From: Chitinophagaceae bacterium
GTDB lineage: Bacteria; Bacteroidota; Bacteroidia; Chitinophagales; Chitinophagaceae
Direction of reading: 5' to 3'
Length of the DNA: 64,000 nt
Assembly: GCA_026415715.1 (NCBI GenBank)
Contig: JAOAGO010000006.1
Location: forward strand, 28,789 to 92,788
Positions 2,331 through 20,111 of the stretch are shown here, in pieces; position 1 is the first letter of the stretch; every line of letters begins with the position of its first letter. A program made the position numbers and the translations under genes. The notes beneath the pieces are model-generated. The model did not search any database. It saw nothing but the letters and a program-made list of their open reading frames with translations, and had not been told where the DNA came from.

Positions 2331-3848
2331 TTATTTGTTTAACTGTACGCCCATTTTTATCCCGAAATCAAAGAGATGCTCGTTGATCGGGTATTTTTTT
2401 AAGAAACTGGAGAATAACTGATACCTGACCTGAGGACCTACCCGCCATCGGATTTTTCCTGTTTGCTGTTGGGTGAAAATTTCAACGCTTGAATTGACAT
2501 TCATTCTCCGGATAAGTGATGGCATTTCGGCATAATTTTTATAGTCGGAAGAGATCAGATATGCCCGGTTGTCTATAACAAAGGTAGGTTGTAATGAAGC
2601 GCCCATTCCGATAAAATTCTTTTTATTTTCTGAAAACTTCTTCTCTACGCCGATTGGAATTCCGGCACTGAAGTAAAAGTTACGTAACCAGTTTTCCTTT
2701 ATGCCATTTGTATTCCGGAAACGGCTGATTGTGGAAACGTTTCGGTCACGAAGCGTAATGGTAGCTACTTCGTCTGGATGCTGAAATGCTTTTATATCAT
2801 ATTTGCTCACGCTGAACTGAAGTCCACCGGTCAGATTCCATTTTTCGGAAAGGACATAGGCCGATTTAATACCGATTTGAAATCCCATGTCGGGGCGGTG
2901 GTACACCATACTGTTAACGTCTGAAGCATAGGGCATAATACCTGCTGCGTTCATGGAAGCGCTGGTTGTAACATAAGCGTTCACCGAATTTTCGGCCAAT
3001 GTTCGGTAACTTATAGTGGGGGTAAAATACAATTGCCAAATCCAGGCTCTTTTAACTGATTTCACCTGAATTGATTCCTGATGTCTGTCGGGTATAAAAG
3101 GTAATGATTCTTGTTCACTGATTTGTTGTTCATTATTTTCCTCAGTAAATGCTGTTCGTGGCGTTTCCGTAGGGGTTTTGCTGAGGTGTAATTCTTCCGG
3201 ATTCTGCATTTTTTCTTCAAGCAGATGAGCTGTCTGTGATTGCAGTTGATAATAATGGTTAGAAGCCGTCAGTCCCTCCGGTTGAGGAAATTGCTCCAAT
3301 GCCGGTAATTCCTTGAATTCTTCAAAAGTTGCGGAAGCTTCGGCTGTTTGCACACCGGTATCGGAAGTTGAAACTGAAGAAGAAATTTCGGTACTGCTTT
3401 CTTCAACCGGATTATTTACGGCATCAGAAAGATCAGAAATAATGGTCCGTGGCTTTGTTATATCAAATCGGGTAAAATCAGTATTAACAATCGTTGAATT
3501 TTGGATATTATCATCTGTTGAAACGGGTGTTTTTGTATTTACCGCATTAGTGGAATATCCGGGAGTCCGGTTTTCAGAAAAATGATTTAAGGAAATATGA
3601 TGAAGTTGTTGATCCGGTAAGCGGATTGCGAATTGGTGAGAAAAAGATTCCCGACGTGATACATTACGCCATATCAGAAGCGATGTAATAACGATGAGGA
3701 ATATCCAACCGTAGGTGTAATTTCGTTTACGCCGATGCAAAGACCTGTAAATACCTTCCCATACTTTTTCGGAAGGATGCATGCGGTACTGTTCCGCTTT
3801 TTCTTTCAGAAATTTCTCAAAGTCACCGTTTTTCTTCAAATACTCCAT
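2331..3848 (-). CDS. Predicted dual-membrane-spanning anti-sigma factor: cytoplasmic domain, TM, long linker, C-terminal outer-membrane beta-barrel
   Basis: This 505-residue protein has three visible parts. Residues 1-45 are a charged cytoplasmic segment (FEKFLKEKAEQYRMHPSEKVW), followed by one hydrophobic helix at about 47-60. Residues 62-265 form a Ser/Thr/Glu/Gln/Pro-rich linker with no obvious fold. From about 266 to the end, alternating aromatic/polar strands of the Bacteroidota outer-membrane barrel type (WQLYFTPTISYRTL, KIRWRVGPQVRYQLF) end in a short hydrophobic strand. The gene starts 47 bp after an ECF sigma gene on the same strand. The layout (inner-membrane helix, a linker long enough to cross the periplasm, an outer-membrane barrel) matches the dual-membrane anti-sigma class reported in Bacteroides. 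The architecture is visible; the anti-sigma role is inferred from it and from the sigma neighbour. Confidence 0.72.
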   Translation of the reverse strand: MEYLKKNGDFEKFLKEKAEQYRMHPSEKVWEGIYRSLHRRKRNYTYGWIFLIVITSLLIWRNVSRRESFSHQFAIRLPDQQLHHISLNHFSENRTPGYSTNAVNTKTPVSTDDNIQNSTIVNTDFTRFDITKPRTIISDLSDAVNNPVEESSTEISSSVSTSDTGVQTAEASATFEEFKELPALEQFPQPEGLTASNHYYQLQSQTAHLLEEKMQNPEELHLSKTPTETPRTAFTEENNEQQISEQESLPFIPDRHQESIQVKSVKRAWIWQLYFTPTISYRTLAENSVNAYVTTSASMNAAGIMPYASDVNSMVYHRPDMGFQIGIKSAYVLSEKWNLTGGLQFSVSKYDIKAFQHPDEVATITLRDRNVSTISRFRNTNGIKENWLRNFYFSAGIPIGVEKKFSENKKNFIGMGASLQPTFVIDNRAYLISSDYKNYAEMPSLIRRMNVNSSVEIFTQQQTGKIRWRVGPQVRYQLFSSFLKKYPINEHLFDFGIKMGVQLNK

Positions 3849-3895
3849 AGTTCTGTCATTTTATCCTGAAAGACAGGAAGGGTACGAAAAAATTT

Positions 3896-4474
3896 TTATC
3901 TGAACATTACATTCATCAGCCAGTTTTCTTTTTTGGGTTTTTGTATGATTTTTTTCCGTATCAAAATCTCTTCCAGCATAGCTCTGGCCCGGGTATATTG
4001 GCTCCGGCTGGTACTTTCCTCTATATCCAGCATTTCTGCAATTTCTTTATGACTGTATCCTTCAATGGCGTAAAGATTCAGCACCGTTCGATAACCGATT
4101 GGCAGGGCCCTGATACATTCCACAATCTGCTTGGCGTGAATAATGGCCGGAACTGCTTCTTCACGGGTGTGCACACCCGAAGCGAAAGCAATATCCAGGT
4201 TGTCATTAAATTTTTTGTTTCTCTTCAGGATATTGATACAGGTATGAACAATAATTTTACGAATCCAACCTTCGAAAGAGCCTCTTCCTTCGTAGGTATG
4301 AATCTGAGAAAATACCTTTATAAATCCTTCCTGCAACATATCCTCAGCATCCTCTTTGCTTTGGGCAAACCGGTAGCAAACGGCCAGCATTTTGGAACAA
4401 AACCGGTTATACAACTCCCTCTGGGCAGTTGCATCATTGATTATACAGCCTTTGATTATGGCTTCCTCGGTCAT
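3896..4474 (-). CDS. ECF-family RNA polymerase sigma factor
   Basis: This 192-residue sigma-70 family protein has region 2 (YNRFCSKMLAVCYRFAQSKEDAEDMLQEGFIKVF) and region 4 (IRALPIGYRTVLNLYAIEGYSHKEIAEML with the following helix-turn-helix). It has no region 1 or 3, as in extracytoplasmic-function sigma factors. It directs RNA polymerase to alternative promoters when released from an anti-sigma partner, here most likely the membrane protein encoded immediately downstream. The start is the ATG at 4474. The TonB receptor gene ends about 107 bp upstream on the same strand, so the sigma factor may have its own promoter. Confidence 0.92.
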   Translation of the reverse strand: MTEEAIIKGCIINDATAQRELYNRFCSKMLAVCYRFAQSKEDAEDMLQEGFIKVFSQIHTYEGRGSFEGWIRKIIVHTCINILKRNKKFNDNLDIAFASGVHTREEAVPAIIHAKQIVECIRALPIGYRTVLNLYAIEGYSHKEIAEMLDIEESTSRSQYTRARAMLEEILIRKKIIQKPKKENWLMNVMFR

Positions 4475-4580
4475 AAAATTCCTTTGGTTGCCCGTAAATT
4501 AGACAATTTTCCGGGAATAATGCTGCAAAAACTGCAAATTTTTTATAAAAATTGCCAAAAACTAACAGCCGGATGAATTA

Positions 4581-6806
4581 CTACCATTTCGTTCTGACGG
4601 CCAGAATAAAGTTTCTTCCCGGTGCCGAAAATCCTGATGCGAAATACCGATAGTTTCTGTCCAGTATATTTTCAACGGCTGCCTGAAGCTGAACGTACTT
4701 TCCGATGTTTACATGCCCTCTCCAGTTCAGGGTCATCCAGGAAGGCATTCCGTCCGGCGTGGCATATTGCAAATTATCTTCTCCAAACGGATTATAATCT
4801 TTAAGACGCTTCCAGCCGTTAAAAAGAACAAATAGTTCGGTTCCGAATTTTGCTTTTTCGTACATCAGGCTTGTTTTGCCGTACAATGGAGGGATATGAC
4901 TTTGCGGTATTTCTGTTCCGTCATAATTCGCAATTCTTCCCCGTGTATAAGTCACAGTGCTGGTAAAGGAAAGATAGCGGGAAAAATCCATTTTTGTGCT
5001 GGCATTAAATCCATAAGTGCGTCCTTTATTAAGATTCTGGTTTGCAAAAACGGCGCTTTTTACTCCGTTGTAAATTATAGAGTCTTGTCCGTTTAGCTTG
5101 AAGGGTGCAGGCACTATAGCATTCCGAAAGAGCGTATAAAATCCGGTTAGTTCAATCATGAATTTTCCGTCAAACGTTTTTTGTATGGTTACATCGGCAT
5201 TATAGGTATATTCGGGTTTGATGTCGGCATTCGGAACAAAGATTCTTCGGGCAACCGAAAAGTCAAAAATTTTCACGAGATCATCAATATTCGGTGAGCG
5301 AAATGCCGAGGATAAGCCGAAACGTAAGCTTGTGTTGCGGCCGGGATTGTAGATGATTCCGGCATTACCTGTTAACGCCAGATGATCCTGTTTGTATTGC
5401 GTTACCGGCAAATTAAAAAAGGAATTATCTATTACGTTGGACCGAAGGGTTACGCTTTGCAAACGCAAACCGTCGTTCAGTACCCATTTCCCGTCTGACG
5501 ATTTGTAGATATGCTGTGCAAACACGGCCATGTAGTTCATTTTATTTTTTCCGTCCGGATAGCGGGTATCCAGTTTTGTTACGGCGCCCGTATTCAGATT
5601 GGTCCGCGAGGCTCTGGATTTCACATCATTGAACTGTCCGTCAATTCCGGCAGTGAGTTCGTGTTGTTTCCATAATTTACGGCCGTCGATAACAAAACCC
5701 CAGACTTTAACCCGTTCTCTGCGGCTGTCAAACCGGTCGTAACGCCGATATTCTCTCTGTTGCCGGCTTTCTTCCAGATCCTGATAGTTTATGTTTACCT
5801 TGATTTCTTCCATGAACGACGAGGGTTTGTATCTGAATTCATAAGCGCTGAGTAATCTTTTTTGCGGGCCGTAATACCATTGTGCCCAGCGAAGGGTTGT
5901 GCCGATAGCACCTCCGAAATTGCGTTTATCCTGTAAACGGTCATATCGGGGTATATTCGTGCTGGTGGAATATTGAACATTGAGCAGATGCGATATACGC
6001 TCGGAGGGCTTGAATAACAGCTTTTGCATAACATCCCATTGCTTATAGCCGGAATATTTCTGTATCCGTGTGTCTTTATTGGCAATTACCGAATCCCGGA
6101 AACCGAAAAATGCTATCAATGAGTCGCGACGGCCGAACGTAGGATATCGGGAAGGATAGCGACTGCCCATCTTCATATCGCCGAAATCGCTGAAGGTAAA
6201 TGAGGAAAGCCAGGCGATTTTTTTTCCACCTATACTCAGGTCGCCGTGAATGGTTTTTTCATGATTGGCCGTACTGTACCGGCTGAATGCCGAACCGGTT
6301 ACCAACGTTTTTTCTGTTTTGGATAAAACGGGCGATTTGGTTTGAAGATGTACAATTCCGCCCAGCGCATCGCTGCCGTAAAGTGTGGAAGAGGGGCCAT
6401 ACAAAATTTCCACTCTTTCGAGCATATTCTGATCTATGGTAATTACATTTTGCAAATGCCCTGCACGAAATATTGCCGTATTGTGCCTAATCCCGTCAAT
6501 GACCAGTAAAACCCTGCTGGCTTCATAACCCCGAATATTAGGACTACTCCCCCCCTGCTGACTCTTCTGAACAAAAAGTTTTCCGCTCAGTATCAATAAG
6601 TCGCCCGTGTTTTGACCGTTAAAGCGGGCTATCTGACGAGCTGTAATCACATCAATTTTTTGTACAAGATTTTTTTGTTTTTCAGGATATTTCATGGAGT
6701 AAACAACCGCTTCTTCCAGTTCTTTTTCTGCCGAAACGGTATCTTTCTGAGCATCAGATCTGAAAATAAAATGAACAGCCACAAAAAGCAGCAAATATTT
6801 TTTCAT
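4581..6806 (-). CDS. TonB-dependent outer-membrane receptor (haem/iron-type)
   Basis: This 741-residue protein starts with a signal peptide (MKKYLLLFVAVHFIFRSDAQ). A short region ending EEAVVYSMKYPEKQKNLVQ leads into a plug domain with the classic NIRGYEASRVLLVIDGIRHN and LERVEILYGPSSTLYGSDAL segments, then a 22-strand barrel ending in an aromatic-rich AVRTKW. There is no N-terminal carboxypeptidase-like domain, unlike SusC proteins. The plug resembles haemoglobin/transferrin-type receptors, and a CxxCH haem-binding-domain protein is encoded nearby, so haem or iron import is plausible; vitamin uptake cannot be excluded. It probably shares a transcript with the 173-residue gene 67 bp upstream. 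Confidence 0.87.
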   Translation of the reverse strand: MKKYLLLFVAVHFIFRSDAQKDTVSAEKELEEAVVYSMKYPEKQKNLVQKIDVITARQIARFNGQNTGDLLILSGKLFVQKSQQGGSSPNIRGYEASRVLLVIDGIRHNTAIFRAGHLQNVITIDQNMLERVEILYGPSSTLYGSDALGGIVHLQTKSPVLSKTEKTLVTGSAFSRYSTANHEKTIHGDLSIGGKKIAWLSSFTFSDFGDMKMGSRYPSRYPTFGRRDSLIAFFGFRDSVIANKDTRIQKYSGYKQWDVMQKLLFKPSERISHLLNVQYSTSTNIPRYDRLQDKRNFGGAIGTTLRWAQWYYGPQKRLLSAYEFRYKPSSFMEEIKVNINYQDLEESRQQREYRRYDRFDSRRERVKVWGFVIDGRKLWKQHELTAGIDGQFNDVKSRASRTNLNTGAVTKLDTRYPDGKNKMNYMAVFAQHIYKSSDGKWVLNDGLRLQSVTLRSNVIDNSFFNLPVTQYKQDHLALTGNAGIIYNPGRNTSLRFGLSSAFRSPNIDDLVKIFDFSVARRIFVPNADIKPEYTYNADVTIQKTFDGKFMIELTGFYTLFRNAIVPAPFKLNGQDSIIYNGVKSAVFANQNLNKGRTYGFNASTKMDFSRYLSFTSTVTYTRGRIANYDGTEIPQSHIPPLYGKTSLMYEKAKFGTELFVLFNGWKRLKDYNPFGEDNLQYATPDGMPSWMTLNWRGHVNIGKYVQLQAAVENILDRNYRYFASGFSAPGRNFILAVRTKW

Positions 6807-6873: not shown

Positions 6874-7395
6874 TCAAAACAATGAGATAGATTCGGATGA
6901 GAAATTCCAGGGCGGCTGTTCCGTTACTCCTACAAAAGTGTTATGTAGAGGATAAGTATTTACCGGGAAAAAAATTTCTCTGGGTTGTTTAAAACATAAA
7001 ATTTCGTGGTGGATACTTTGATAAGCGCCCAAAAGATGAAGAATATGAATCAGAAATTTTACCGTTCGGGAATGGTCTTCGTTCTTCATGAGCTGTTTAT
7101 GCCATTCTGTTTCTTCGTCATCAAATAAGCCTTTGAGCCGGATGCTGTTGTTATCTGAATACACGATTTCTTTTACATCAAAAAAACGCCCTCCGATTAT
7201 GGCTTCTTTGTTTTTTTTTATCCAGATCAGATCGTTTTGGCTTACGGTAATCGTTTGGATATTTTCTTTTTCGAGTTTTTCTTCGATGGCCTTTTTCATC
7301 ATGTGTAAACGCAGATAAAACCAAAACGGACTCAAAAGACCGGCAGTTAAAATGAACAGAAATAAACATGCATATTGGTTTTGTCTGCGTTTCAT
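6874..7395 (-). CDS. Hypothetical membrane-anchored protein next to TonB receptor
   Basis: I do not recognise this 173-residue protein. It has a basic N-terminus and one hydrophobic segment at residues 8-30 (CLFLFILTAGLLSPFWFYL), then a charged helix and a periplasmic-looking domain (NDLIWIKKNKEAIIGGRFF; DDEETEWHKQLMKN). The last third is His- and aromatic-rich (FLIHILHLLGAYQSIHHEIL), followed by a Pro-rich tail. It sits between the haem-binding-domain gene (26 bp upstream) and the TonB receptor gene (67 bp downstream), all on one strand, so an accessory role in the same uptake system is possible but unproven. Confidence 0.68.
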   Translation of the reverse strand: MKRRQNQYACLFLFILTAGLLSPFWFYLRLHMMKKAIEEKLEKENIQTITVSQNDLIWIKKNKEAIIGGRFFDVKEIVYSDNNSIRLKGLFDDEETEWHKQLMKNEDHSRTVKFLIHILHLLGAYQSIHHEILCFKQPREIFFPVNTYPLHNTFVGVTEQPPWNFSSESISLF

Positions 7396-18473: not shown

Positions 18474-19049
18474 TTGCATACGTTTACAGATGATGAGTTA
18501 ATCCGTCTTTTCAAAAAAGAAGGAAATACGGAAGCGGTCGGAATTTTATATGAACGCTATGTGGAACTGGTGTACGGTGTTTGTTTGAAATATTTAAATA
18601 ATCCGGAAAGCGCAAAAGACGCTGTCATGCAGATTTTTGAAGAGCTCCTGACCAAACTCCGCAAACACGAGATAGAGTATTTCAGAGGATGGTTATATCG
18701 CCTTTCCAAAAATTACTGCCTGATGCAGTTGCGCAAGCCGGCTTATAAGAAAAATACTGAATTTTTAACGCATCATGTGCAAAATGAAGAAATTTTGCAT
18801 CTGAATACTGTAATGGAGCAAGAAGAAAATCTGAAAATGATGGAATTTTGCCTGGAGCAGTTACCGCAAAAACAAAAAGAGGCCATTGTGCTGTTTTACC
18901 TGAAAGAAAAATGTTATCATGAAATTGCCGATCTGATGAACGAACCCTGGAACTCCGTAAGAAGCCTGATACAGAATGGCAGACGAAATCTGAAAATCTG
19001 TATGGAAAAAAGAGGTGTTACATATCCTCAAAAACAATCAAACACCTGA
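18474..19049 (+). CDS. ECF-family RNA polymerase sigma factor (TTG start)
   Basis: This 191-residue protein has sigma region 2 (ILYERYVELVYGVCLKYLNNPESAKDAVMQIFEELL, then FRGWLYRLSKNYCLMQLRK) and region 4 (LEQLPQKQKEAIVLFYLKEKCYHEIADLM). The only plausible start is TTG at 18474; no in-frame ATG exists between the upstream stop and the conserved N-terminus FTDDELIRLFKK. It is followed after 9 bp by a membrane protein with a typical Bacteroidota anti-sigma N-terminus, so the two form a regulatory pair. It is transcribed divergently from the alpha-toroid cassette. Confidence 0.9.
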   Translation: MHTFTDDELIRLFKKEGNTEAVGILYERYVELVYGVCLKYLNNPESAKDAVMQIFEELLTKLRKHEIEYFRGWLYRLSKNYCLMQLRKPAYKKNTEFLTHHVQNEEILHLNTVMEQEENLKMMEFCLEQLPQKQKEAIVLFYLKEKCYHEIADLMNEPWNSVRSLIQNGRRNLKICMEKRGVTYPQKQSNT

Positions 19050-19058
19050 GCAGAAAAC

Positions 19059-20111
19059 ATGAATGATAAAAAAAACATAAAATCCTTTACCGTATCTGAT
19101 ATTGAAAAATATCACAAAAACGAGTTGCCGCCTTCCCGCCGGCACGAGCTGGAAAAAGCCGCACTGGAAGATCCTTTTCTGGCCGATGCCCTTGAAGGAT
19201 ATGAGGCGCATGCGCAACGCATGGCAGATGACATTAACGAGTTAAAGAAAAATATTTTACAAAAAACGTTAAGCCCAACGGGGAAAAACAAAAAAAGCCT
19301 GATACGAAGAATACCTGTATGGGCAAAAGCAGCCGCAGCCCTGATATTATTAGGAGGAGCAGGTTTAATTACTTATAAAATATTTAAACCCGGAAAAGAA
19401 CACACACTTACAAAAACAGAAACCGAAAAAAATGAACGATGGCAAATACAACATGACACCGTAATTTCTTCCGTACAAAACCCGCCTCATGAAACATTCC
19501 CTCCTACGGCCACTTCAACAGAAAAAGAGTCAGCACAGAAAACTTTAGAAGTAAATAAAAACAAGGAATATGAATCGGTAACACTACCTCAAAAACAACA
19601 AGAAATAAAACCGTCCGTTACAACTTCACAACCGGCCCTTCAGAATTCCGATTCACTTCCGCCGCCAACCGTTCAGATTCATGAACCCGAAAAAATTCAG
19701 GAGGAAAGAATCCTGATATTAGACCGGCAAAAAAATCCTGAAGCCGTTAAAAAACAACCGGCCCCCGCAGGAAACTCTGCTAAAAGAGAAAACACGGAAG
19801 AAAATGCTGAAGGCCTGGTTGTGCATCTGAAAGAAAATAAACAAATACAAAGGCAGTCCGTAGAGCCAAAAATTCTTTATCCCATTAAAGGAGTTATAAC
19901 AGATTACCGGGGAAATGCACTTGAGGGAGTTATTATCACAAATTTAGAAACCAAAAACAGGGTGAAAAGCGATGAATCAGGAAATTTTATGTTTCTTTCG
20001 GCAGATACTGTGATAAAAGTAAAAATAGAATTGAGCGGATTCAGAACGGTTCGTACCACGCTGAAAAAAGATATTCAAAATATTATTTCTTTGAAAACAA
20101 AAGACAATTAA
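19059..20111 (+). CDS. Anti-sigma-type membrane protein with C-terminal carboxypeptidase-like regulatory domain
   Basis: This 350-residue protein starts with a cytoplasmic segment typical of Chitinophagaceae anti-sigma proteins: SDIEKYHKNELPPSRRHELE followed by ALEDPFLADALEGYEAH. One TM helix follows at about 87-103 (AKAAAALILLGGAGLITYKI). A 170-residue Lys/Glu/Pro/Thr/Gln-rich periplasmic linker leads to a C-terminal beta-sandwich (YPIKGVITDYRGNALEGVII; DESGNFMFL) of the CarboxypepD_reg-like family. Binding of the upstream ECF sigma by the N-terminal segment is inferred from position and motif. The periplasmic domain could sense an envelope ligand. Confidence 0.82.
   Translation: MNDKKNIKSFTVSDIEKYHKNELPPSRRHELEKAALEDPFLADALEGYEAHAQRMADDINELKKNILQKTLSPTGKNKKSLIRRIPVWAKAAAALILLGGAGLITYKIFKPGKEHTLTKTETEKNERWQIQHDTVISSVQNPPHETFPPTATSTEKESAQKTLEVNKNKEYESVTLPQKQQEIKPSVTTSQPALQNSDSLPPPTVQIHEPEKIQEERILILDRQKNPEAVKKQPAPAGNSAKRENTEENAEGLVVHLKENKQIQRQSVEPKILYPIKGVITDYRGNALEGVIITNLETKNRVKSDESGNFMFLSADTVIKVKIELSGFRTVRTTLKKDIQNIISLKTKDN

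Follow-up and report, generated by a model that had tools for sequence, protein, structure and literature searches.

The window, a 64,000-nucleotide stretch of DNA from an uncultured Chitinophagaceae-type bacterium, encodes an ECF sigma factor followed by a 505-aa candidate anti-sigma factor, and the two are best explained as a self-activating switch tethered to the outer membrane. From the gene pair, the topology features of the 505-aa protein, its barrel, the invariant pairing across genomes, and the conservation and scarcity of the promoter, we infer sigma binding, insertion of one chain in both membranes, release by outer-membrane disturbance and self-activation; the explanation as a whole is very probably correct. 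The process would run as follows. Residues 1–43 would keep the ECF sigma factor bound to the inner membrane, which the chain would cross once before continuing as an unstructured periplasmic tether and ending as a barrel in the outer membrane. A disturbance of the outer membrane (failed barrel insertion, a ligand, mechanical pull or proteolysis) would free the sigma factor, whereupon it would transcribe from the element TGCAGCA-N16-GTCTAA ahead of its own gene. The transcription unit would extend into a lipoprotein gene in most relatives, while in this genome it would comprise the sigma and anti-sigma genes only.

Both open reading frames were found exactly where the earlier note had placed them. 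In transcription order, the sigma gene (positions 3896–4474, reverse strand) precedes the gene of the 505-aa protein (2331–3848, reverse strand). The sigma factor is 192 aa long and is covered by the region 2 and region 4 families (PF04542, 5e-16; PF08281, 9e-16). Its class was recognized by the generic ECF model (TIGR02937, 1e-25), in agreement with the earlier reading of the pair, and its identity to orthologues is 64–79%.

The architecture of the 505-aa protein was derived from an alignment of orthologues, an AlphaFold2 model (a single chain, 45 aligned sequences) and Foldseek comparisons. A basic cytoplasmic segment leads into a single TM helix, after which a disordered linker of approximately 200 residues connects to the C-terminal outer-membrane barrel; the conserved alignment columns are confined to residues 1–60 and the barrel. 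The predicted cytoplasmic sigma-binding segment (residues 1–43; 3720–3848, reverse strand) is marked by a conserved motif, a profile and repeats in a sister anti-sigma candidate. The predicted inner-membrane helix (residues 45–63; 3660–3716, reverse strand) was placed by hydropathy, charge asymmetry and the model, in which helices span residues 8–20 and 27–64, the second running continuously through the predicted membrane segment; confidence in this helical part is modest (block pLDDT 57–77). The membrane segment is moderately to weakly hydrophobic in the window protein, with a Kyte-Doolittle mean of 1.42 against an orthologue range of 1.34–2.94. The mean net charge over 45 sequences is +3.4 on the N-terminal side and +0.5 after the TM segment, a distribution that favours an N-in topology. 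The disordered periplasmic tether (residues 66–262; 3063–3653, reverse strand) has nearly continuous pLDDT values below 50 at residues 67–259. Its sequence is unconserved and its length is 120–206 residues in 45 sequences, never less than 120; judged by contour length, such a linker would be long enough to span the periplasm if extended.

The outer-membrane beta-barrel (residues 269–504; 2337–3044, reverse strand) was modelled with block pLDDT values mostly of 76–97, and 56–57 in one loop region. In a Foldseek search against the PDB, the barrel matched the outer-membrane barrels OpcA, OmpA, NspA and OmpW, the best target being NspA with a target TM of 0.63. PF13568 (OMP_b-brl_2) was matched by 18 of the 19 orthologues, while the window protein itself had no match in Pfam, PF13568 included, or in NCBIfam. 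A PDB sequence search with the 505-aa protein gave nothing meaningful, and a search of a viral structure library returned generic barrels only. Thus the cytoplasmic segment, single TM helix, disordered linker and C-terminal barrel claimed from the sequence alone were all borne out by the model, the charge asymmetry and the orthologues. The eight strands expected for the barrel became eight or ten, since the DSSP assignment is compatible with either.

By its architecture, the sigma/505-aa pair is of the Dma/Reo type. The Dma system of Bacteroides thetaiotaomicron was reportedly first described in a PNAS 2024 paper. Dma1 and Dma2 of this species have an anti-sigma N-terminus, one TM segment, a long disordered tether and a C-terminal barrel (PMC13088901), and the resemblance to Dma1-Das1 and Dma2-Das2 extends to the adjacent cognate ECF gene. 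Deletion of dma2 raises das2 (log2FC 4.54) and bt_1557 (6.00), das2 is required for hypervesiculation, and vesiculation is one reported output of both Dma1 and Dma2 (PMC13088901). In EcfO-Reo of Bacteroides fragilis and Phocaeicola vulgatus, the anti-sigma factor likewise reaches from the cytoplasm to an outer-membrane C-terminal barrel, with the sigma gene upstream; the system is induced by envelope stress, its regulon contains lipoproteins (NigD) (PMC9308784, PMC13114119), and loss of the anti-sigma factor in P. vulgatus activates its regulon (PMC9308784). The Bacteroides precedent named in the earlier note is therefore real, but vesiculation is no more than a possible output of the Chitinophagaceae protein, the layout being tied to envelope stress in P. 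vulgatus. Unlike Dma1 and Dma2, the present pair belongs to a Chitinophagaceae host, has an unnamed lipoprotein family as its third gene and has a predicted regulon near its own operon; the regulon of EcfO-Reo is wider and includes three nigD genes. The NigD_N domain (PF12667) was found neither in this genome nor in any of 198 genomes, but only in the control Bacteroides ihuae; by this marker, no Bacteroides genome turned up in the sample. The kind of system is thus already known; what is new here is the Chitinophagaceae branch, a near-unique conserved promoter, a lipoprotein partner and a repeat form of the N-terminal unit.

The extent of the regulon was approached through the promoter. An ECF-type element, TGCAGCA-N16-GTCTAA, lies upstream of the sigma gene (4499–4527, reverse strand) and, followed by a conserved start region, is common to the relatives at this place; at 54 of 60 loci its spacer has a length of exactly 16. 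An exact match was found in 11 genomes of the genus (this genome and ten congeners), with a single copy in each, and that copy is invariably the one ahead of the sigma gene. When up to two mismatches were allowed, this genome contained 41 sites, as compared to 65 for a reversed control pattern, so that the scan for regulon members revealed no excess over the control. The single exact copy per genome and the lack of an excess of mismatched sites make self-activation of the sigma gene likely and a large regulon unlikely; use of this promoter by this sigma factor is deduced from its position and conservation. The circuit is likely to be self-regulating with few targets, mainly its own operon. A broad regulon, such as the vesiculation or polysaccharide loci of Bacteroides, could be served by degenerate promoters missed by an exact-match scan, and the regulons of Dma1, Dma2 and EcfO do include unlinked genes (PMC13088901, PMC9308784). 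However, given one exact copy per genome and fewer near-matches than in the control, such a regulon is rather doubtful. Promoter sequences differ in a distant Bacteroidota family (f40, loci L166–L180), whose sigma genes are preceded by GGCAACC, approximately 17 bases and a GTATnGTTA-like box, which suggests divergence of promoter specificity.

The predicted operon points to a candidate output. At 53 of the 58 loci that could be scored, the sigma-barrel pair is followed by a gene for a lipoprotein of approximately 190 aa and then by UvrC. In this genome, an aminotransferase gene occupies the usual place of the lipoprotein, while the lipoprotein and UvrC genes stand together on another contig, with no promoter copy upstream of the displaced lipoprotein. 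Members of the lipoprotein family include L070:5601–6182 and its homologues, and C10:38948–39481 in this genome. The lipoprotein was modelled with a pLDDT of 89; its fold had no confident match in the PDB, the best being lipocalin-like (E 0.013), and the members tested had no significant Pfam match. Its place in the operon makes the lipoprotein the likely effector of the self-activating switch. A stricter form of this reading is a self-contained surveillance of the outer membrane. Since the promoter occurs essentially once per genome, the switch would drive only its own operon; the lipoprotein would be its sole effector in most relatives and would have escaped in this genome, leaving a sigma/anti-sigma loop with no linked effector. 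We hold this form only tentatively.

Upstream of the pair stands a TonB-dependent haem-type receptor (4581–6806, reverse strand), which the earlier note had named as a possible target. The receptor has plug and barrel domains only (PF07715 and PF00593), with no STN domain, and its matches to TIGR01786 and TIGR01785 were below cut-off. If the barrel protein and the receptor formed a haem-responsive, FecI/FecR-like circuit for haem uptake, then this gene order, the Haem_bd gene (PF14376) also present upstream in the window, and the presence of a receptor homologue in 39 of 53 scorable loci would be accounted for. The pair does resemble FecI-FecR-FecA in having an ECF sigma factor, a single-pass anti-sigma factor and a nearby TonB receptor. 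However, the barrel is here part of the anti-sigma factor itself and the receptor is dispensable: it is absent from the remaining 14 scorable loci and is thus a variable neighbour. Unrelated housekeeping neighbours (such as GPM and UvrC) are retained too, so that the receptor reads as inherited synteny. Moreover, the conserved promoter stands downstream of the receptor, and the genome contains no second copy of it. No FecR domain was found in the window protein, which has no Pfam match, or among the matches of the 19 orthologues, and together with the missing STN domain this excludes membership in FecI/FecR cell-surface signalling. A haem circuit is consequently improbable; the receptor as target of the sigma factor is not supported by synteny or by the place of the promoter, and the receptor probably lies outside the system. 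Beside it, the window encodes a 173-aa small membrane protein (6874–7395, reverse strand) of unassigned family, which many relatives retain at only 25–39% identity.

The pairing of the sigma and barrel genes was followed across genomes. The sigma gene is immediately upstream in the window, in 18 of its nearest relatives and at one locus that is more distant. Among 62 Chitinophagaceae loci, it is directly upstream of the barrel gene in all 61 that have upstream sequence, the remaining locus stopping at a contig edge. One carrier of the pair is a cultivable relative, Terrimonas ginsenosidimutans (locus L100). Two congeneric genomes, G019 and G022 (99% and 98% complete), lack the barrel gene, and the orthologous sigma factor is absent from both: none was found in G022, and the best score in G019 was 181 bits, as compared to at least 364 bits in carriers. 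Judged by gene order, the pairing is far beyond chance, and the expectation that the two genes would be co-conserved was upheld.

The N-terminal segment recurs beside sigma genes in its own right. Residues 1–43 carry the motif F-E ... P-S-x-x-V-W-x-x-I, in which F10, E11 and V29 are invariant and W30 is present in at least 90% of 45 sequences; the order of the signature is a short helix, P-S-x-x-V-W-x-x-I-x-x-x-L, basic residues and a membrane helix. A profile of residues 1–80 matched in 131 of 393 Bacteroidota genomes. At every inspected locus with a strong match, the matching gene was directly preceded by an ECF sigma gene on the same strand. Among the more remote matches, several proteins carry a Pfam barrel domain at the C-terminus; some matches were short (approximately 250 aa). 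By these matches, the segment is one of a motif family found behind ECF sigma genes. That the 505-aa protein is an outer-membrane protein whose long N-terminus simply stays uncleaved, placed beside a sigma gene that it does not regulate, is highly improbable: the support for sigma binding is indirect and the model covers one chain, but the adjacency is unbroken, sigma and barrel genes are absent together, the N-terminal motif is common to sigma-adjacent genes with differing C-termini, and the same layout has a published function.

In the same genome and its relatives, a sister ECF sigma factor is followed by a protein of 230–340 aa with the N-terminal signature. These barrel-less sister anti-sigma candidates carry one to four copies of the signature ahead of a hydrophobic segment of their own, mostly 32 residues apart, in repeats covered by no Pfam family. 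The profile scores of four such proteins were 16.3–48.8 bits, while the maximum in 1000 shuffles was 8.1 bits. The simplest reading is that the N-terminal segment is a sigma-binding unit, single in the tethered proteins and serial in the sister proteins. The sister sigma gene of this genome (C15:1760–2266, L259) stands behind a Ham1/RdgB-like gene, as do those of L253, L254, L256 and L258; the candidate of L253 has four motif copies exactly 32 residues apart.

That one chain can link RNA polymerase to the outer membrane has been found only recently, in gut Bacteroidales. The same layout is now seen in Chitinophagaceae; across Bacteroidota, related sequences beside sigma genes are widespread. 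For an environmental version, the promoter that it probably uses is now given, the lipoprotein is flagged as a likely effector, and the haem receptor is dropped as the favoured target. With so small a predicted regulon, these species would make it easier to find out what the barrel senses.

The window holds a second ECF sigma gene paired with the gene of a 350-aa partner (18474–20111, forward strand). In the partner, an N-terminal segment is followed by a single TM helix and a disordered linker; the C-terminal domain is CarboxypepD_reg-like (PF13620/PF13715, below cut-off), of a kind that SusC-type receptors often carry. By its layout, this protein is possibly another envelope-linked anti-sigma factor.
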